From Halomonas sp. GT (lineage in GTDB: Bacteria > Pseudomonadota > Gammaproteobacteria > Pseudomonadales > Halomonadaceae), in contig NZ_CP020562.1 in the NCBI RefSeq assembly GCF_002082565.1, positions 992,001-1,056,000 of the forward strand: a stretch of 64,000 nucleotides of DNA, given 5' to 3'. Numbering within the stretch: position 1 is the stretch's first letter; every line of letters begins with the position of its first letter. Made by a program: the position numbers and the translations under genes. Under the pieces are notes generated by a model that ran no database searches, had not been told where the DNA came from, and worked only from the letters and a program-made list of their open reading frames with translations. Positions 47,526 through 64,000 of the stretch are shown piece by piece.

Positions 47526-48581
47526 ATGGCAACGATTCGTAAGCGCCGTAAGAAGGACGGCAGTTTCTCATATTTAGTGCAAATACGCATCGCAAGACGT
47601 GGTCAACCTGACCACGCAGAAACAAAAACATTCCCTAGAAAAGCTATGGCTGAAGAGTGGGCAAAGCGCCGTGAACTTGAGTTGGCTGCTCCAGGTGGCG
47701 TGCTAGCTGCTAAATGGAAGGGCGTTACTCTAAACGATGCCATTGAACGCTACCTGCATGAATTTGCGAATGGGGCAGGGCGCAGCAAACGGGCCACTAT
47801 TGAGCAGTTGCAGCGGTTTCCCATTGCCCGCGTCAAAATTACTGAGTTGAGTAGTGAGCAGATTATTGACCATGCCCAAATGCGGCGCCGTAGTGGCGTT
47901 AAGCCTTCAACCACGGCTCAAGATATCACCTGGCTGGGTATCATTCTGAAAACTGCAGTTGCCGCTTGGCGTATGCCGGTGGATCTCAATGAATTTGAAT
48001 CGGCGAAGCTGCTTTTACGTAGCAAGGGCCTGATTAGTCGCCCTGGTTCGCGGGACCGCCGGCCAACGCTAGAAGAGATCGAGCAAGTACGCGCTTACTT
48101 CCAGCGCTCTCAGAAAATACGGCCAAGTGCGATTATTCCTATGGAAGACATCATGGATTTTGCAATTGCTTCGGCGCGGCGCCAAGAAGAGATTACACGT
48201 ATTACCTGGGATGATCTGAATGAAGATGACATGACATGCTGGGTACGCGATGCCAAGCATCCACGTCAAAAGTGGGGCAATCACAAACGCTTTAAACTTA
48301 CCCATGAAGCGATGGCTATCATCCAGCGGCAGCCGCGTAAGCAAGATGAACCGCGGATATTTCCCTATAGCGGTAAATCAATAGGTACTCGCTGGCGAGC
48401 AGCAACTGCGGCTAAAGGTATCGAAGATCTACGATTTCATGACCTGCGCCATGAAGCCACTTCACGACTGTTTGAGGCAGGATATGAGATCGTGGAAGTG
48501 CAACAGTTCACACTCCACGAAAGTTGGGATGTATTGAAGCGGTACACACATTTGAGGCCAGAAACGTTGCAACTTAGGTAG
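47526..48581 (+). CDS. int: Tyrosine-type site-specific integrase (dusA-associated)
   Basis: Phage recombinase for integration/excision, 351 aa. AP2-like N-terminus (MATIRKRRKKDGSFSYLVQIRIARRGQ), SAM-like core-binding domain, catalytic domain with first Arg in SARRQEEITRI, HxxR in FHDLRHEATSRLFEAG, second His in LHESWD and nucleophile Tyr in LKRYTHLRPE. Start at the ATG preceded by GGAGAGG; the frame opens 28 codons upstream across the repeats. It points away from dusA and its end overlaps the convergent HNH gene by 8 bp. Confidence 0.94.
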   Translation: MATIRKRRKKDGSFSYLVQIRIARRGQPDHAETKTFPRKAMAEEWAKRRELELAAPGGVLAAKWKGVTLNDAIERYLHEFANGAGRSKRATIEQLQRFPIARVKITELSSEQIIDHAQMRRRSGVKPSTTAQDITWLGIILKTAVAAWRMPVDLNEFESAKLLLRSKGLISRPGSRDRRPTLEEIEQVRAYFQRSQKIRPSAIIPMEDIMDFAIASARRQEEITRITWDDLNEDDMTCWVRDAKHPRQKWGNHKRFKLTHEAMAIIQRQPRKQDEPRIFPYSGKSIGTRWRAATAAKGIEDLRFHDLRHEATSRLFEAGYEIVEVQQFTLHESWDVLKRYTHLRPETLQLR

Positions 48582-49404
48582 TCGGCATGGCGTTAGCAAT
48601 ATTTTTTAGTGCTATTAAGTCAGTGGAAAGGTTCAACGCATGCATCTTCCGGTGACAGTTGGGGCATAGTGCAACAGTGTTCTCGATAGAATCATCACCA
48701 CCTTTGGCTAGCCACTCAATGTGGTGGCACTCCAGGTAACGCTCGCCCTTTTTGGTTTCAAAAGGGGCTGGTTGCTGACAGAGCTCACAATGCCCATTGG
48801 CACGTCGCTTAGCGTAGGCAGCAATATAGGGCGATCGAGGTATGACGGTAGTTTGACCTGTTCGACTTCCTACTTGAGCGGGGGCATTCTCAGCGCGTTT
48901 TCTTAGCTCGGTATCAGATAGCTTGCGAGCTTTTCGCTCTTTCTGCTCGAATAACTCACGTGCGGCCGTTTCATCCATTATCACGGCTTCGGCGTCCTTC
49001 AGCTTTAACGGAAAGAGCCAAACGCTGCGAAGGGCGCCTTGGGAGTCGGGTTGTGTTGCCTGATAAGGAGGGGCGACGCGGACGACCTCGCCTGTGTAGG
49101 TATATTGCTTATCCTTAAAAACTTCAAAAAGGTGCACTGAAACGCCATTTTCGGGGCTTTCACTGAGCGTTTTGTTCTGGTTGAAGCTCAGGCTCATGTC
49201 ACCGGTTTGGCCCATTCCTGTGTAATGGATGGTATCGCCATGCCATTGGTCATCATATATCGATGCAACATGGTTAGTGACTATCACCAGGGTGTTCGTC
49301 TTATGAGATCGGCGCATGCCCCCTTGTGGGCTGCACTGGAATATTTCACATAGTTCTTGATTATTGAGAACTGTGCCGGGCTTAAGCGAGTTAATCGAGT
49401 TCAT
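48574..49404 (-). CDS. SRA-like/HNH endonuclease, probable modification-dependent (type IV) restriction enzyme
   Basis: A 276-aa protein. Residues about 5-135 resemble the SRA-like domain of ScoMcrA-type enzymes (SPQGGMRRSHKTNTLVIVTN, HYTGMGQTGDMSLSFNQNKTL, VHLFEVFKDKQYTYTGEVVRV), which reads modified bases. The C-terminal HNH nuclease (CELCQQPAPF, LECHHIEWLAKGGDDSIENTVALCPNCHRKMH) has two CxxC zinc pairs and catalytic His. The gene overlaps the Nudix gene upstream by 14 bp, so they are co-translated. Inferred role is cutting modified phage DNA. Confidence 0.82.
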   Translation of the reverse strand: MNSINSLKPGTVLNNQELCEIFQCSPQGGMRRSHKTNTLVIVTNHVASIYDDQWHGDTIHYTGMGQTGDMSLSFNQNKTLSESPENGVSVHLFEVFKDKQYTYTGEVVRVAPPYQATQPDSQGALRSVWLFPLKLKDAEAVIMDETAARELFEQKERKARKLSDTELRKRAENAPAQVGSRTGQTTVIPRSPYIAAYAKRRANGHCELCQQPAPFETKKGERYLECHHIEWLAKGGDDSIENTVALCPNCHRKMHALNLSTDLIALKNIANAMPTT

Positions 49405-49780
49405 AAGTGCTTATCAATTCCTTGGCGATTGGGATGTCAGCGGGGGCCAGTTTGTAGTTAAGCAGGTCGGTGAGCGGCGCCCATGTGAGACAGTCGTGTA
49501 CCTGTAGTTCAGGCTCTCCAGTGACGGTCACGAGAACGCCTATGAGGTTAATCACACCGCCTGGGTACTCGTACACGCTTTCCTGAAAAATGCGCTCAGC
49601 CACACATGTTAGATTGAGCTCTTCTTTGATTTCCCGCTCGATGCACTGGTGAACGGTCTCACCTGGCTCCACCTTACCACCGGGGAATTCCCAGAAACCT
49701 TCGAGCTGCTGCCCAGGCGCTCTTCGCGTCAGCATGATTTTACCGTTTGCGATTGCAAGCGCCGCGGCAACGTTCTTCAA
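49391..49780 (-). CDS. Nudix hydrolase, MutT/CtxA-like nucleoside triphosphate pyrophosphohydrolase
   Basis: A 129-aa single-domain Nudix enzyme: ALAIANGKIMLTRRAPGQQLEGFWEFPGGKVEPGETVHQCIEREIKEELNL contains a canonical Nudix box and the MutT-like WEFPGGK. Substrate is probably an oxidised or modified (d)NTP. It uses a TTG start with AAGGTG upstream. Coupled by 14-bp overlap to the SRA-HNH endonuclease gene; the pairing suggests a joint function on modified nucleotides or DNA. Confidence 0.87.
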   Translation of the reverse strand: MKNVAAALAIANGKIMLTRRAPGQQLEGFWEFPGGKVEPGETVHQCIEREIKEELNLTCVAERIFQESVYEYPGGVINLIGVLVTVTGEPELQVHDCLTWAPLTDLLNYKLAPADIPIAKELISTYELD

Positions 49781-55767: not shown

Positions 55768-56433
55768 ATGGTCATCGGTGAGCGTCTGAGAAAAGAGCGA
55801 GAACGACTTGGGCTTAGCCAGACGGCTTTGGCTGAGGTCGGTGGAGTCGGTAAAACGACGCAAATTAAGTACGAAAAAGGCACAAGTCGTCCCGATACTG
55901 CTTACTTATCTGCAGTTTCTGATAGAGGCGTTGACGTTCTCTATGTGCTCAAAGGGAAAAGATCAGATACCGCACAAGCCGATGCCTTAAAGGTTTCGTT
56001 TGGTGAACCTTCGGCTGATCATTCGCCGGTCAAGATGTACGACATTGAAGCGGCCGCCGGGGCAGGGCGAAGCTTTGAAGGCGAGCCGGTGAAAACCACG
56101 CTGTACTTTTCCACTGCCGAACTCACCGAGCAGGGGCTAAACCCCGCCCAGGTAGTGGGCATCAAAGTGCGCGGCGATTCGATGGACGGCACCCTAGCGG
56201 ATGGGGACTGGGTGCTAGTGGATCGCAGTAACCGCGACCCGAAACAGGAAGGTGTGTTTTTGCTGCTGGTCAGCGGTGAGCGCCGTATCAAACGGGTGCA
56301 GCGCCTAGCAGGGGGCGCGCTGTACTTGATTAGTGACAACGACCATTACCAGCCGGAAATGATCAAGCCGCAGGATATGCACGACGTGGAGATTCTGGGG
56401 CGGTGTGAAATTCGGATTGGGCGGGTTTTGTAA
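55768..56433 (+). CDS. Prophage CI-like repressor: XRE HTH plus S24 (LexA-type) autopeptidase
   Basis: A 221-aa repressor keeping the prophage silent. HTH_XRE residues 3-60 (IGERLRKERERLGLSQTALAEVGGVGKTTQIKYEKGTSRPD); S24 peptidase domain with catalytic Ser138 in VRGDSMDGTLADGDWVLVD and Lys175 in GERRIKRVQ; probable Ala-Gly cleavage site in EAAAGAGRSF (about 97-100). RecA-dependent self-cleavage is expected, so the prophage should be SOS-inducible. Divergent from the early operon. Confidence 0.93.
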   Translation: MVIGERLRKERERLGLSQTALAEVGGVGKTTQIKYEKGTSRPDTAYLSAVSDRGVDVLYVLKGKRSDTAQADALKVSFGEPSADHSPVKMYDIEAAAGAGRSFEGEPVKTTLYFSTAELTEQGLNPAQVVGIKVRGDSMDGTLADGDWVLVDRSNRDPKQEGVFLLLVSGERRIKRVQRLAGGALYLISDNDHYQPEMIKPQDMHDVEILGRCEIRIGRVL

Positions 56434-57138: not shown

Positions 57139-57393
57139 ATGCTTGGATCGCTCATGCTTATATTGATTTCTTTGTTATCTAGTGTGTTTTGTTTAATTTG
57201 GGTTATTTTGGATATTTCATTCTCAAGTGTTGCTGCTTTTCTGGCCTCCGTAGTTGTTGTTTTAACTTTTGTTTATCAAAAAAAATCTTCTTCTAGCAAG
57301 CAGGTGCAGAAGATCAAAAAAGGGTTTGGTATCCAGGCTGGTCGAGATGTAAATATAAGTGGGAAGCAAGGGAGGGATGAAAGTGTTAGATAA
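57139..57393 (+). CDS. Small membrane protein with C-terminal QAGRD motif, 84 aa
   Basis: Two hydrophobic helices (about residues 5-27 and 29-47), a Lys/Ser linker and GFGIQAGRDVNISGK. QAGRD/QAGGD beta-turn motifs are found in several phage- and defence-linked proteins of unknown role. No clear ribosome site; an in-frame ATG at 57154 is an alternative start. The 3' end overlaps the next gene by 17 bp. AT-rich. Confidence 0.6.
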   Translation: MLGSLMLILISLLSSVFCLIWVILDISFSSVAAFLASVVVVLTFVYQKKSSSSKQVQKIKKGFGIQAGRDVNISGKQGRDESVR

Positions 57394-58261
57394 AGACATA
57401 CAAACACAAAAAGCTTCTGGCAGTGCTCTTGCTGTTCAATCAGGAAGAGATACATATGTTGGGATGCAGTATGGTGACGTGAAAGACTTGGTTGTCTTGC
57501 TACTTGAAAATAATTTTCCTCGCCTCAGAGCTGAAGCAGTGGAAGAATCTAGAAAATATGTTGATGAGTTTGGAGAAAAAATAATCGAAAAGTTGGCGGA
57601 TAAGTTTGAAGGCGACGATTATTCATTTTTATCTAAACCAAGTTTTCAAGCTTCTGTAAATGATGGAGTGATGTATGCTGCTCGTAAAACGAGTGAGGCA
57701 GATATAGACTTGGTTAGTGATCTTATAATTGAAAAAATAAATAATAAAAACGATTCGATAGTTGACATAATTTCTACTGAAGCAATTGCAGTTTTGCCTA
57801 AAATAAATAAAAGCATAATAGCTTTTCTAGCTTTTCATCATTTTATAAGACATTGCAGTGTTTTGCCTGCAAGGTATAGAGATCTAAAGTCAAAGTTTTT
57901 TTATAACTATATGTCTACTAAAGTTATAGCTTATGATGATATTGAAGCTATAGATAAAGATTATATTGAATACTTAGGCTTGGTCATGAGTGGGAAGCAT
58001 TATACAAAAAAACTTTATGAACTTATGGAGTCAAATTCTGGATTAAAACATCCTAAAGATGACTATGATAAAAAGTTAAAGGCTGGGAATTATTATTATG
58101 ATAATTATGAATTAATGTCTAAGTATATGCTGAAGTTTGGTGTTGAAAGCTTAAAGGAGTGGGATGATATGCCTATAAATAAAATTGCTAGTAAAATAGC
58201 TATGTCATATTTAAATGTTAATAATTTATATTGTGTTGAAAGATTGATCTTGAAAAAATAG
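57377..58261 (+). CDS. LPO_1073/Vpar_1526-like protein, 294 aa
   Basis: Begins with SGSALAVQSGRDTYVGMQYGDVKDLVVLLLENNFPRLRAEAVEESRKYVDEFGEKIIEKL and continues as an all-helical protein with PSFQASVNDGVMYAARKTSEADIDLVSDLIIEKI and FLAFHHFIRH. This pattern fits the LPO_1073/Vpar_1526 family, which has no assigned function. The N-terminal QSGRD echoes the QAGRD of the membrane protein upstream, suggesting they interact. The start is either ATG 57377 or GTG 57383, the latter 6 bases after GGAGG. About one third G+C. Confidence 0.68.
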   Translation: MKVLDKDIQTQKASGSALAVQSGRDTYVGMQYGDVKDLVVLLLENNFPRLRAEAVEESRKYVDEFGEKIIEKLADKFEGDDYSFLSKPSFQASVNDGVMYAARKTSEADIDLVSDLIIEKINNKNDSIVDIISTEAIAVLPKINKSIIAFLAFHHFIRHCSVLPARYRDLKSKFFYNYMSTKVIAYDDIEAIDKDYIEYLGLVMSGKHYTKKLYELMESNSGLKHPKDDYDKKLKAGNYYYDNYELMSKYMLKFGVESLKEWDDMPINKIASKIAMSYLNVNNLYCVERLILKK

Positions 58262-58504: not shown

Positions 58505-58855
58505 ATGCGCGTGAATTACTTGGGGCCTGCGGTGATGGGTGTGGAGCACCCCGCGATAGCAGAGATGGACAAGCGACGGTTTCCGCCTAGTTGCTTTCTG
58601 GTGGAGATCAGTGACGAGGCGCACTCAGGTGGGTTATGGATGGAAGGCGATGTGCTGGTAGTGGATGAAGCACGCTCGTTTGGCCATGCGGATCTGGTGG
58701 TGGCTGAGGTAGAAGGGGAATACCGGCTATTTAAATCTCATCGCGTGGGTAGTCGTTGCCGTTTGTTGCCTGCCAACGGTGGTGAAGGGTGTTTTATCAC
58801 CCCCAAGCAGTATAAAGGCGTGGTGGTTCGGCAAGCGCGATGCTGGGCGGTGTAG
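58505..58855 (+). CDS. UmuD/S24-like protein lacking the canonical catalytic serine, 116 aa
   Basis: The C-terminal half follows the S24 fold of UmuD/LexA: GGLWMEGDVLVVDEARSFGHADLVVAEVEGEYRLFKSHRVGSRCRLLPANG and KGVVVRQARCW. In UmuD the catalytic Ser sits in GDSM; the equivalent here reads SDEAHSGG, so the Ser is missing or shifted, while a Lys is kept in YRLFKS. No UmuC gene follows. Expressed from an SOS box and ended by a hairpin terminator. Role unknown, possibly modulating repressor cleavage or polymerase V. Confidence 0.78.
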   Translation: MRVNYLGPAVMGVEHPAIAEMDKRRFPPSCFLVEISDEAHSGGLWMEGDVLVVDEARSFGHADLVVAEVEGEYRLFKSHRVGSRCRLLPANGGEGCFITPKQYKGVVVRQARCWAV

Positions 58856-59289: not shown

Positions 59290-59318
59290 CTGTATAGGGC
59301 TTACGATTGGGGGCAAGA

Positions 59319-60326
59319 ATGGCTTATCGGGTAAACGGCACGATGAAAGATGGGAAGTTAGTTTTAGAGCCTTCCCAGCTTCTACCGCCTTCTGAAAGAG
59401 TAGCAAGCTTGGCGCGTAAGCCCAATGAGACTGAGCTAATCCCGCTTTCAACTCCCTTTTGGGAAATGGATTTTTTTAAGGGGGTTTTTAATCGAAAGTA
59501 CGAAGAAGCCCATTACTTGGAAAAGGCCTTGGTTAGTCAACATGTTTCTTTTTTGATGAAGAGCCACGCCTTGGCTCCTTATGCCACCAGTATTTCGGCA
59601 GGGCTAAGCTCGCCTGACTTCTTAACTGATCATATGAAGCTTCCTGATTGGGCTGAGCGATCAGCTAGCATTGCCAGTGAATATCAAGACCCTCTGGAGG
59701 CCGCTCGTAAAGCTGCATTGGGAGATAGTTCATATTACTTGGATCAGCATTTGGCTTCTTCTAACTTAGCGGGGCAAGTAGCAAATGGCTTTTCGAGCAG
59801 CACCATTGAAAGTTTTACCCGAGATTTAACAAGCTCCGAGGCTGCATATAAAGCCGCTACGGGTACCAGCTTAAGCTCTGCTAGCGAAGCTGTGGCGGGA
59901 CTAACGAAGAACTATACTTCACTACTTGACGATGACGTACGTGAATCTCTGAAAGGCCATCATGCTTCTATTCGAGATGCTATAGCGCCTCAGTATGCCG
60001 ATATTCCAGAGTCAGAGAGTAGGTTACCTTCAGTAGATATTGCTCCCTTTAAATATATTGATGAGCAAAACGCACGACTCAGGAAAGAGCAAAATGAACG
60101 TGACGAGTGGTTAAAGAAACAAGCCGAAAATAGTGATAAGCAGTTGCACATCCTAGCGGCCCAGGTGGAAGAGGGAAAGCGTTCACAGTCAGCACAGAGT
60201 CGAAGTAACGTCTTTGCACTGCTGCTTGCGGGAGCTGCTTTATTAGTCTCAATCCTGACTGGATTTTGGGACGCGGAGGAGCTGCGGGCGATGGTAATGG
60301 GTGTTTTTGAAGATCGTTCTGAGTGA
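59319..60326 (+). CDS. Unrecognised 335-aa protein with C-terminal membrane anchor
   Basis: Start ATG of MAYRVNGTMKDGKLVLEPSQLLPP with GGGGG upstream. The long N-terminal part is helical and Ser/Ala-rich; a charged coiled coil (YIDEQNARLRKEQNERDEWLKKQAENSDKQLHILAAQVEEGKRSQ, about 240-285) precedes one C-terminal hydrophobic helix (FALLLAGAALLVSILTGFW) and a short acidic tail. Tail-anchored proteins of this shape occur in phage exclusion and abortive-infection modules, but no homology is claimed. Confidence 0.7.
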   Translation: MAYRVNGTMKDGKLVLEPSQLLPPSERVASLARKPNETELIPLSTPFWEMDFFKGVFNRKYEEAHYLEKALVSQHVSFLMKSHALAPYATSISAGLSSPDFLTDHMKLPDWAERSASIASEYQDPLEAARKAALGDSSYYLDQHLASSNLAGQVANGFSSSTIESFTRDLTSSEAAYKAATGTSLSSASEAVAGLTKNYTSLLDDDVRESLKGHHASIRDAIAPQYADIPESESRLPSVDIAPFKYIDEQNARLRKEQNERDEWLKKQAENSDKQLHILAAQVEEGKRSQSAQSRSNVFALLLAGAALLVSILTGFWDAEELRAMVMGVFEDRSE

Positions 60327-60388: not shown

Positions 60389-60820
60389 CTAATTCAGCTC
60401 GACACCTTCGAGCGCCACTAACCACTCAGACGCCTTTGCTAATGCATTTTTCTGGCCTTTGCTGAAACGATTTGGCTTAGTTCCTTTGTTCCAAACCTCA
60501 CCATGATAAGGGTTAGCAGCTATCGGGTCATAACCAATTATTAGGCCTGCACCGCGAGCAGCAACTGATTTAAAAACCACGGAGCCAGTGAATACAGGAG
60601 TGGTCACAAATTCCTTAACATCCGTTTCATCAGCTTCCATGAGCCTGGGAATATCAACAGACATGCCATCGTTAGGGCCTGATGATGCTGAAAAAAGCTT
60701 CGACGATACACGTTCTCTTTTCAGGTTCTCATCAAAAATCACATGCTGCTCGCGGCATACTCTTCTAATGATGTCATCTTCATTTGCAATCTGTGCCTCA
60801 TCATAAGGTTGTACTGACAT
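60389..60820 (-). CDS. TIGR04255-operon small protein 2, 143 aa
   Basis: Soluble protein of a common but uncharacterised family: EDDIIRRVCREQHVIFDENLKRERVSSKLFSASSGPNDGMSVDIPRLM then VFKSVAARGAGLIIGYDPIAANPYHGEVWNKGTK. The pattern I-RV-----v-DEN---R-SS--F and the NPxHxEV motif recur in proteins sporadically found in many bacteria. Third gene of the trio, 18 bp after the second. AGGAGAG upstream. Confidence 0.78.
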   Translation of the reverse strand: MSVQPYDEAQIANEDDIIRRVCREQHVIFDENLKRERVSSKLFSASSGPNDGMSVDIPRLMEADETDVKEFVTTPVFTGSVVFKSVAARGAGLIIGYDPIAANPYHGEVWNKGTKPNRFSKGQKNALAKASEWLVALEGVELN

Positions 60821-60838
60821 AACAGAGCTTGCTCTCCT

Positions 60839-61336
60839 CTATGCCAATTCGTTGGCATCTGCTAGAGAGCGTATCCAATCAACTACTCCTGCGAAGTCGT
60901 TTTGGATCTCCAATAAGTCTTCTTCATCAGTCAGAATGTTGTAACGAGTGGCTACCACATTTTGAGGACCTAATACATCGAGCTCAACATCATAATTGTT
61001 GCGGTGCCACTCTACCTGTAAGCTGCCATCACTACCTGGTACAAGGTAAGGTGCGGGCACACCATCTTGGCATAAACGCTCTAACATGTTGATAACAAAG
61101 TGAGCTGTTTGGCAAGACACTGGCCGACCGTTGTACCCATCCCAACCAACGGACAGAGATGTAAGTTCATCAAGCCTTTCTCTTAGAGCTATGCTCCAAT
61201 CAGACTGATAACCGTGGACATTCAATCTGAAAGCTGAAAAAGCACTATGCGCAGCAGAAATATCCCGTGACCGACGTTCAGGGGTAGTTTTATAAGCCCT
61301 GTAAGGTGACTCTTTTCTGATAGCTTCAGCAATCAT
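60839..61336 (-). CDS. TIGR04255-operon small protein 1, 165 aa (GWDGYNG motif)
   Basis: Soluble protein with LTSLSVGWDGYNGRPVSCQTAHFVINMLERLC and PYLVPGSDGSLQVEWHRNNYDVELDVLGPQ, a layout seen in a widespread uncharacterised family (L-xGWDGY-xAxP ... DGxxxxEW). The ATG overlaps the TGA of the TIGR04255 gene (ATGA) with GGGGAG 7 bases upstream; the longer frame starting with TTG is less likely. Confidence 0.8.
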   Translation of the reverse strand: MIAEAIRKESPYRAYKTTPERRSRDISAAHSAFSAFRLNVHGYQSDWSIALRERLDELTSLSVGWDGYNGRPVSCQTAHFVINMLERLCQDGVPAPYLVPGSDGSLQVEWHRNNYDVELDVLGPQNVVATRYNILTDEEDLLEIQNDFAGVVDWIRSLADANELA

Positions 61337-62139
61337 AGTATTTCTCCCCAAACCTTATGTGCTTCCTTGGTAGTCATTTCGCTAAAGCGATTGACAATTT
61401 TTTCTCTTCCCTGCCGGATAAAATTCATTGCATATGCAACACTGTTTCCGGCTGGTTGACCTCTATACGTTAAGATTAGCCTTACAGCTTTCACCTTTCC
61501 GTTTTTTGTCACTACGGGCTGCAACTCATGGAAAAGACGTGCAACTGGTTTTTTGTTAATGTCATTGACTACCTCGGTGAAATTAATGTTCATGCTTTCT
61601 ACATTAATTCCTGAAAAATCAAGTGTTTTTATCCAGCTATTTATTTTTGAATAGTCTTCAGCCTGAATAAAATTAATATAAGATACTTCTGCTTGATTTA
61701 TGTCGAGTGCGTTTTTCTGTCCATTGAACGAAAGTGCTTCAAGCTTTAGTAAATTGCTTTCAAAATTTTCAGATACACCCTCGAAGCGTGGGTATTGATT
61801 ACCGTTAGCCTGTTTTCTCCAGTTCAAAAGAAAGCGATCTTCTTGGAACTGGATTAGATGGTTCTGATCCTGTGATATGAACCAAAGCCTAGGATTTAAT
61901 TGGGAAGGGCCAAATCTAAACTGAACGCTTTGCTGAGGCCCCATGCCCCCGAATGTTTCAAAAGTTGGCTCAATAGGAGGATGCTCTTGGATAAGAGGAA
62001 AGTCATCCTTGTATAAGCCCCATACATCTTTTGCCAGCACCGATGAGTAGCCAGGAAGAGCTGAAAACTGAACACCAATAACCACTTCATCTAACGGTGG
62101 GTTAGAGAATTCTGGCAGATTTTTTGGCCTATCTTTCAA
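61333..62139 (-). CDS. TIGR04255-family protein, 268 aa
   Basis: Begins LPEFSNPPLDEVVIGVQFSALPGYSSVLAKDVWGLYKDDFPLIQEHPPIEPTFE, the signature of the TIGR04255 family (sporadic, function unknown). The middle has RLWFISQDQNHLIQFQEDRFLLNWRK; the C-terminal part is alpha/beta. TTG start with GAGG/GGAG about 8 bases upstream. First gene of a coupled three-gene operon on the minus strand. Confidence 0.85.
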   Translation of the reverse strand: MKDRPKNLPEFSNPPLDEVVIGVQFSALPGYSSVLAKDVWGLYKDDFPLIQEHPPIEPTFETFGGMGPQQSVQFRFGPSQLNPRLWFISQDQNHLIQFQEDRFLLNWRKQANGNQYPRFEGVSENFESNLLKLEALSFNGQKNALDINQAEVSYINFIQAEDYSKINSWIKTLDFSGINVESMNINFTEVVNDINKKPVARLFHELQPVVTKNGKVKAVRLILTYRGQPAGNSVAYAMNFIRQGREKIVNRFSEMTTKEAHKVWGEIL

Positions 62140-62371: not shown

Positions 62372-62510
62372 CTAACTTTTGTTGCGAATTTCTAGTTGCA
62401 AGGCGGTGGTGTCGGTGAGGTTGTGGGTTACCTCGGTGATGATCCATGGGGTGGCGTCGATTTGGGGCTCGCCGCTCAATACTTTGAGGGTGTGGATACC
62501 AGGATAGTCG
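62372..62510 (-). pseudogene. Fragment of a second late-control gene D
   Basis: The minus-strand frame ends GEPQIDATPWIITEVTHNL then TTALQLEIRNKS and stop. This matches the end of gene D at the window edge (PQIDATAWIITEVTHNL, TTALQLETRSEQ) but is clearly diverged. Only about 45 codons remain, so it is a remnant, from another P2-like phage or an old duplication. Confidence 0.85.
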
Positions 62511-62803: not shown

Positions 62804-63223
62804 TTATGCGCTTTTACGTGCTTTGGCCAGTTCTGCCATGGCAACCCGCGAGAGGAATCCGCTACGCGTTTTATCCCCTGGGTGGCTGGCCACAAAGTCG
62901 TCAATCTGTTTCACCAGTAGGTCTGGCAACGTGACGTTGATTTTGTGGCTTTTGCCCAGGTAGGGGGTTAGGTCAATATCGATCACGGCCCAGATCCAGC
63001 CTTCAAAATCGGGGTTATCCATGTGGTGTTCGATAGACGTTGCTTCAGGAATCGGGTCGCCGTAGTCCACGGCGACTTCTAGCCAGCCTTCAATGGCTTC
63101 CTTGGCGTTGACCATCGCTTCTTCAAAGGTATCGCCTGCTGAATGGCAGCCGGGCAAATCAGGCACCGCCACGCCGTAGGCGTGTTGTTCGTCGCCGCGT
63201 TCAATTGCAATGGGAAACAACAT
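62804..63223 (-). CDS. hicB: HicB-family antitoxin
   Basis: A 139-aa antitoxin and autorepressor. N-terminal HicB fold (MLFPIAIERGDEQHAYGVAVPDLPGCHSAGDTFEEAMVNAKEAIEGWL) occludes HicA; C-terminal ribbon-helix-helix (KINVTLPDLLVKQIDDFVASHPGDKTRSGFLSRVAMAELAKA) binds the operator. Follows hicA by 42 bp on the same strand. Confidence 0.93.
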   Translation of the reverse strand: MLFPIAIERGDEQHAYGVAVPDLPGCHSAGDTFEEAMVNAKEAIEGWLEVAVDYGDPIPEATSIEHHMDNPDFEGWIWAVIDIDLTPYLGKSHKINVTLPDLLVKQIDDFVASHPGDKTRSGFLSRVAMAELAKARKSA

Positions 63224-63265
63224 GCGTTGATCTCCTGTTGTGGTGCGGGGCAGCAGTGGCCAGCC

Positions 63266-63448
63266 TCATAAGAGGCCGGCGCTTTTTCTGATTCCCTTTA
63301 CTAGCCCTGTTTTCAAATCCTTTTTGGGATGTGGCACGGTCACTGTGCCTGGCTTAGTAGGGTGCCTGAAATGGTGGTGGCTGCCTTTGACTCTCACTAA
63401 CTCCCAGCCATCCGCTTCCAGTTCCTTGATCAGTGCTCTGCTATTCAC
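63266..63448 (-). CDS. hicA: HicA-family mRNA interferase toxin
   Basis: A 60-aa double-stranded-RNA-binding-fold toxin that degrades mRNA. NSRALIKELEADGWELVRVKGSHHHFRHPTKPGTVTVPHPKKDLKTGLVKGI is the full HicA pattern; catalytic His is in KGSHHHF. The start is a GTG placed where HicA proteins begin; AGGGG lies about 8 bases before it. The frame extends far upstream without stops, which is not coding. Promoter and operator lie directly upstream. Confidence 0.9.
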   Translation of the reverse strand: MNSRALIKELEADGWELVRVKGSHHHFRHPTKPGTVTVPHPKKDLKTGLVKGIRKSAGLL

Positions 63449-63474
63449 CTCCTGCCCCTGTGTTTTTGAATGTA

Positions 63475-63534: not shown

Positions 63535-64000
63535 CTATTGTTCTGAGCGGGTTTCGAGCTGCAACGCAGTGGTATAACTGGATTCGGTGAGGTTGTGGGT
63601 GACTTCTGTGATGATCCAGGCGGTGGCGTCGATTTGGGGTTTCCAGCCAATGCATTGGGCGGGCGTTTCGGGGAAGACGTTGGGGTCGCCTACCGCCTGG
63701 GTAATGCTGAAAAAGGCGACGCCGCGTTGCAGGCGTTGCCATTCTGCTTGGGCGGCTTCCAGCGCTTCGGTTTCGCTGGCGTAGGTGTGGCGTAGCTGCT
63801 GGGTGTTGTCGGGCTCGCCGACGGTGACCGTGAGGCGTTCAGCTTGGTCTTTTTCATACCATAGGGCGGTGACGCCGGTGTAGGCGTCGCGCTCGGCAAC
63901 TAAGTATCGGTGTTGGTCACCGGTTTCGCGCCGTAGCTGGATGGGTGGGATTTCTAGCCCGCTGGCGGTGGTGGCTTGGCCCATGGGGACGAAGATCAGG
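63535..64000 (-). CDS. D: Phage late-control protein D (gpD), C-terminal part, cut by window edge
   Basis: Tail-spike-hub/late-control protein of P2-like phages. The frame is open to base 64000, with about 154 codons visible. MGQATTASGLEIPPIQLRRETGDQHRYLVAERDAYTGVTALWYEKDQAERLTVTVGEPDNTQQLRHTY, QAEWQRLQRGVAFFSI, GDPNVFPETPAQCIGWKPQIDATAWIITEVTHNL are the gpD C-terminal pattern. The rest of the tail operon should lie to the right, transcribed leftward. Confidence 0.9.
   Translation of the reverse strand, partial: LIFVPMGQATTASGLEIPPIQLRRETGDQHRYLVAERDAYTGVTALWYEKDQAERLTVTVGEPDNTQQLRHTYASETEALEAAQAEWQRLQRGVAFFSITQAVGDPNVFPETPAQCIGWKPQIDATAWIITEVTHNLTESSYTTALQLETRSEQ

Follow-up and report, generated by a model that had tools for sequence, protein, structure and literature searches.

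A TIGR04255 three-gene operon in Halomonas prophage cargo as a candidate tripartite toxin-antitoxin-like module with an exchangeable third gene

In a 64,000-nucleotide stretch of DNA from Halomonas sp. GT (contig NZ_CP020562.1, positions 992,001 to 1,056,000 of the forward strand, hereafter the window), three adjacent open reading frames (ORFs) encode a TIGR04255-family protein, a 165-aa protein and a 143-aa protein (genes 1, 2 and 3). They lie on the minus strand between 62139 and 60389, where a preliminary description of the window had placed them. Here, we report that these genes form a conserved, mostly overlapping operon. Across TIGR04255 loci, the third gene comes from any of several exchangeable classes, which include known toxins and nucleases. 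The trio, which is prophage cargo, is probably a toxin-antitoxin-like module of three parts and one form of a broader class whose common element is TIGR04255. A TIGR04255-centred class that swaps effectors was not found in the literature and databases searched, and is apparently undescribed.

Results

The three genes are conserved as a unit

The genes of the trio are tightly packed: the stop codon of gene 1 and the start codon of gene 2 share an ATGA, which points to translational coupling, and gene 3 begins 18 bp past gene 2. A purine-rich stretch lies 5' of each gene, that of gene 1 being AGAGGAG. The TTG start of gene 1 is supported, since the N-terminus it yields agrees with the consensus of homologues. 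Gene 1 matches the NCBIfam model TIGR04255 with 80.8 bits (cut-off 30) over model positions 2–252 of 252 and has no significant Pfam match, while genes 2 and 3 have no NCBIfam match and nothing above the Pfam cut-offs. A sequence search of the PDB returned only weak, chance-level matches (3, 2 and 0 for genes 1, 2 and 3, respectively), and a promoter scan was unhelpful, the sites being fewer than in shuffled sequences.

To survey the neighbourhood, 30 genome loci were collected by a search with gene 3 alone (alignment A1) and scored with our own profiles. Genes 1, 2 and 3 occur in this order and on one strand at 27 of the 30 loci, including one (L005) at which gene 1 is divided between two ORFs. 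Two of the exceptions have genes 2 and 3 without gene 1 (L020, L029), and the third has gene 3 with the final ~60 aa of gene 2 (L004). The final four bases of gene 1 at the 27 loci are ATGA (21), GTGA (3), TTGA (1) or other (2), and the gene 1 stop could double as the gene 2 start in 25 of them. The preliminary description had proposed a single functional unit, to be doubted if the three families showed no conserved association. The same two partners recur with TIGR04255 at these 27 loci and an effector-type gene lies downstream at 89 of the 98 TIGR04255 loci described below; the association is thus kept and the proposal stands. Separately, a 236-aa metagenome protein (P0278) joins a TIGR04255 start to a gene 3 end; it is perhaps the product of a deletion or an assembly fault.

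The third position is exchangeable

TIGR04255 is sporadic. In the sampled genomes, its frequency was 8 of 145 for the order, 35 of 369 for the class and 30 of 398 for the phylum (sets that overlap in some genomes), and 29 of 301 for the phylum to which the L020 genome belongs. Among the genomes listed, none of the three of the same genus and none of the five of the same family carries it.

We then read 98 loci, namely the window, the genome-survey loci, one Mycobacterium plasmid and one IMG/VR contig; some matches were given no locus, and some loci are near-copies. The recurring layout is TIGR04255, then a partner, then a third gene. At classified loci, the gap between mechanically called genes was within 30 bases of zero for genes 1 and 2 in 80 of 85 cases and for genes 2 and 3 in 77 of 83.

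Profiles of the third-position proteins were made from 58 seed loci and run against all downstream ORFs. They placed 89 of the 98 loci in classes: CD (35), ADP-ribosyltransferase (ART)-type (34), HEPN-like (11), NlpC/P60-like (4), PIN (2, of which L058 was assigned by hand), YhaV (1), MazF/PemK (1) and HNH (1). Because a seed locus is matched by its own profile, the count to rely on is the one for the held-out loci, 30 of 39 (non-seed, without L058). Three loci at contig ends are ART-type (L096) or HEPN-like (L106, L122). Nine loci were left unclassified (L050, L079, L087, L091, L112, L120, L121, L126, L127), two of which, L050 and L127, look ART-type by eye. As a control, the same profiles matched at no locus upstream on the same strand, at none downstream in antisense and at one upstream in antisense (L095, CD profile). 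The names HEPN-like, NlpC/P60-like and CD were given by eye. Pfam confirmed Toxin_YhaV (156 bits), PIN (35.8 and 28.6 bits), HNH (29.6 bits) and PemK_toxin (E 1.1e-18), and gave one weak HEPN match (0.003); NCBIfam was uninformative for the mixed list of third-position proteins. By profile-profile comparison, the ART-type subgroups are interlinked directly or stepwise, as are the CD subgroups, and no ART-CD pair reached 1% probability.

The partner varies with the third gene. Most ART-type loci have a partner with a WD-Y ... EW domain, many CD loci one with a helix-turn-helix (HTH)-like stretch seen by eye (at L041 with weak HTH matches below cut-off), and several other loci have shorter partners with a hydrophobic stretch, again by eye.

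On a tree of TIGR04255 obtained by a short search with 88 of the 98 proteins (37 of its 85 inner branches are weak and eleven end branches are long), the classes, labelled as they stood before the contig-end loci L087, L096, L106, L122 and L126 were revised, require 16 changes, against a least possible 7 and a shuffled mean of 37.3. The HEPN-like class alone requires 6, of which 5 are forced by starred branches. These values suggest that an effector accompanies its TIGR04255 protein for some time before another replaces it.

The CD class is the commonest among the loci examined (35 of 98) and has no convincing Pfam or NCBIfam match. Its members (third genes of L032, L034, L036, L041, L045 and others) share W-QG ... 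SH-CD(L/I) motifs as judged by eye. NlpC/P60-like third genes, likewise recognised by eye, occur at L042, L044, L073 and L074; at L044 and L073, the called partner starts ~106–109 bases past TIGR04255, without overlap.

Gene 3 has a predicted ADP-ribosyltransferase-type fold

The structure model of gene 3 is confident (predicted local distance difference test score, 96), and its best 12 structural matches all have the ART fold, with modest Z-scores of at most 6.8; Tse2 and KptA are listed among the closest known proteins. Moreover, R19, S54 and H106 are each conserved in 27 of 29 divergent relatives. For the ART-type group as a whole, Pfam was uninformative and a PDB sequence search gave no match. 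An ART-type fold with a conserved R-S-H set is therefore supported, but not proved, by the model and the alignment, and with such a fold and residues gene 3 would act through NAD+. The trio is one operon, which would be compatible with a type II toxin-antitoxin module; that gene 3 of the window may be a toxin is suggested by analogy with the YhaV, PemK and PIN proteins of other loci.

Gene 1 is best read as a non-catalytic regulator

The model of gene 1 shows a duplicated TBP-like/phosphagen-kinase-like fold, with TBP and phosphagen kinases as the first structural matches. In a set of 86 TIGR04255 proteins, near-invariance is limited to M1, Y116 and F252; almost no polar residue is invariant, and we claim no kinase activity. 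The best reading of TIGR04255 is that of a non-catalytic regulator. A SecB fold, considered from the order of strands and helices, was set aside: fold searches put the duplicated TBP-/phosphagen-kinase-like fold first, Pfam gave no SecB match for gene 1, and SecB is absent from the list of fold matches, a list that cannot by itself exclude it. The preliminary description had called the family one of no known function and, indeed, no paper naming it was found in the literature searched, which did not extend to subscription papers and preprints.

Gene 2 links the trio to the candidate system PDC-M32

Of the GWDGYNG motif reported earlier for the 165-aa protein, G64, W65, G67 and Y68 never vary among 50 homologues, and D66 hardly does. 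Residues 52–156 of gene 2 match positions 262–367 of the 375 of PDC-M32A (E 3.6e-13), one of two proteins of the PADLOC candidate PDC-M32. In addition, 9, 3 and 2 of 29 ART-type third-position proteins match three PDC-M32B models (best E 4.9e-8), which makes gene 3 a divergent relative, although it has no match of its own to PDC-M32B up to E 1. The trio also differs in lacking the N-terminal ~255 positions of PDC-M32A, and in having three genes instead of two. With PDC-M32A matched only in positions 262–367 and PDC-M32B unmatched by gene 3, the trio falls outside PDC-M32 proper. The sequence comparisons suggest that it is a relative of PDC-M32, which is its nearest catalogue entry and an untested candidate. 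The preliminary description had called both partners uncharacterised; given the PDC-M32A match of gene 2 and the modelled fold of gene 3, this now applies only in part.

We also considered that TIGR04255 might correspond to the N-terminal part of PDC-M32A, and rejected this: none of 86 proteins matched, and there were four weak single matches to other models. A search for full-length PDC-M32A in sets of 190 and 249 genomes gave 3 and 2 matches, respectively, all to the C-terminal part only (ORFs of 167–181 aa; genomes G873 and G1243 matched in both sets), and one of them (L136) sits directly after a TIGR04255 place. Phage and plasmid searches with genes 2, 3 or their relatives yielded no annotated PDC-M32 pair. 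In the literature searched, PDC-M32 is named in one paper, a prophage annotation that lists it in prophages (PMC12429752), and no experimental test of it was found. As a side observation, an Acetobacter plasmid protein (L071:5944-7249) contains two gene-2-like stretches by eye and is followed by a gene annotated SspB; no TIGR04255 gene is annotated within 6 kb.

Prophage setting and other cargo

In the window, the prophage-cargo setting proposed for the trio is borne out by an S24-type repressor ORF on one side and gene D on the other (Table 1), with additional phage-type ORFs in the surroundings by eye. The G+C content is 43% for the trio and 42% for the cargo preceding it, compared with 52% for the window.

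Table 1. Features of the trio and its surroundings (positions in the window)
Feature	Position	Strand	Description
Gene 1	61333..62139	-	TIGR04255 protein, 268 aa, TTG start; proposed regulator or sensor
Gene 2	60839..61336	-	165 aa; variable N-terminal stretch and conserved GWDGY ... EW domain; proposed antitoxin
Gene 3	60389..60820	-	143 aa; ADP-ribosyltransferase-type fold in model; proposed toxin
ATGA overlap	61333..61336	-	Gene 1 stop and gene 2 start
S24-type repressor ORF	55768-56433		86% match to a Halomonas phage repressor over 395 bp
Gene D	from 63535, extends past window end		phrog_52
Copy of gene D 3' end	62412-62467	-	56 bp, 91% to 63584-63639
HicB antitoxin gene	62804-63463	-	Pfam, 172 bits
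LPO_1073/Vpar_1526 family gene	57139-58261	+	118 bits
UmuD/S24-like gene	58505-58855	+	Short protein; Pfam 24.1 bits (cut-off 23.3); phrog_811
339-aa ORF	59307-60326	+	Faces the trio; hydrophobic stretch close to its end
HNH-type and NUDIX-like ORFs	48574-49780	-	By the presumed prophage edge (by eye)

This setting holds for the window, and we do not extend it to the family. With the window TIGR04255 protein as query, 50,697 phage records gave no match, plasmids one match and IMG/VR one confirmed locus; gene 3 had two IMG/VR loci, one on the TIGR04255 contig and the other with a match pattern like that of L004. By eye, the neighbours at the 30 gene-3 loci are mostly ordinary chromosomal genes. 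Of 172 neighbours called there, 146 were scanned and 26 dropped for length, and the matches listed are the best 25 of 117 and the best 25 of 84 matched families, read without a background set. Among these, the integrase profiles phrog_1 and phrog_216 matched 3 proteins each, type I restriction profiles one protein each (by eye, apparently genes of L014), a Mads profile 2 proteins and PbeA profiles 2. Thus, the enrichment in prophages or defence islands that the preliminary description had suggested looking for was not seen at the 30 loci among the matches listed.

The cargo holds further genes. In the interval from the trio to the HicB gene there is a second copy of the gene D 3' end, a layout that would fit repeated insertion of cargo beside gene D. 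With a HicA-like reading frame seen by eye behind gene D, the HicB gene would make a second toxin-antitoxin pair. Ahead of the LPO_1073/Vpar_1526 gene lies a small ORF that by eye contains a hydrophobic stretch, and the two are a possible second cargo module. The 339-aa ORF had no convincing match in NCBIfam, Pfam, PADLOC or PHROG profile scans.

Discussion

In a toxin-antitoxin-like module of this make-up, gene 2 would bind and silence gene 3 in the resting state, and TIGR04255 would bind gene 2 or the gene 2/gene 3 pair as a stabiliser or sensor. A trigger, perhaps a phage product or a stress signal, might then disturb the complex, and the freed gene 3 would act through NAD+, which it would either split or use to ADP-ribosylate a target; growth would stop, and infection would be aborted. 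Toxicity, the antitoxin role, the trigger and a part in phage defence or superinfection immunity, which the preliminary description had also suggested, are what we infer from this scheme.

The alternative that survives best, which we hold to be rather unlikely, is an addiction module, in which the same tripartite set would retain prophages, plasmids and islands by killing cells that lose them, with no anti-phage role. At the third position, relatives of YhaV, PemK and PIN represent classic type II toxins, the Mycobacterium plasmid trio adjoins a relaxase gene, and the neighbour families among the matches listed give no clear tie to defence genes. However, stabilisation explains little amid the ordinary chromosomal genes of most gene-3 loci, and the system that gene 2 and some of the third-position proteins resemble, PDC-M32, is a candidate for phage defence, albeit no more than that. 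It is improbable that gene 3 is a non-toxin enzyme of the ART fold, for example for KptA-like RNA or nucleotide processing, regulated by genes 1 and 2: related loci have YhaV, PemK, PIN and HNH proteins in the same slot, the coupling to two genes is tight and the distribution is sporadic. A housekeeping or metabolic operon without a conflict role would suit three families of no known function, one of them named in no paper found, but is very improbable given the sporadic occurrence of TIGR04255, its absence from the listed same-genus and same-family genomes, the low-G+C prophage cargo and the nuclease and toxin families that share the slot.

Beyond the toxin-antitoxin-like reading of the trio, we tentatively propose a wider one, which is possible but somewhat doubtful: TIGR04255 may be the constant hub of an undescribed tripartite class for toxin control or abortive infection, in which a duplicated, TBP-like, non-catalytic protein and a class-specific adaptor silence an effector and sense a trigger, with at least 8 effector classes, including new R-S-H ART-type toxins and the CD class. 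If TIGR04255 indeed serves as common regulator in a modular toxin system, a family that has a name and no function would gain a testable role, many hypothetical neighbours would gain a likely one, and the R-S-H ART-type and CD groups would become candidates for new toxin chemistry. The PDC-M32 candidate would then make sense, and the class would offer a comparison case for TAC systems and Panacea, in which one constant part also meets many toxins.

In CmdTAC, a capsid protein draws the chaperone off, degradation of the antitoxin follows and the ADP-ribosyltransferase is released; across TAC systems, the toxins vary and the chaperone type is constant (PMC11618068). The trio resembles them in its three co-encoded genes and, by predicted fold only, in its proposed ADP-ribosyltransferase toxin. 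By functional analogy, and without a claim of kinship, it might work like CmdTAC: TIGR04255 would take the place of the SecB-like chaperone, to which no relation was detected. Gene 3 has its conserved R-S-H set, whereas the triad of CmdT is HY-[E,D,Q] (PMC11618068). In Panacea, where PanA is described as one constant domain found with many unrelated toxin domains and proposed as a sensor (PMC10440598), a constant component is likewise paired with varied toxins, a likeness of description, drawn without sequence comparison. Panacea systems are, however, two-gene antitoxin-toxin pairs, whereas the trio has a separate second gene between the constant protein and the effector.
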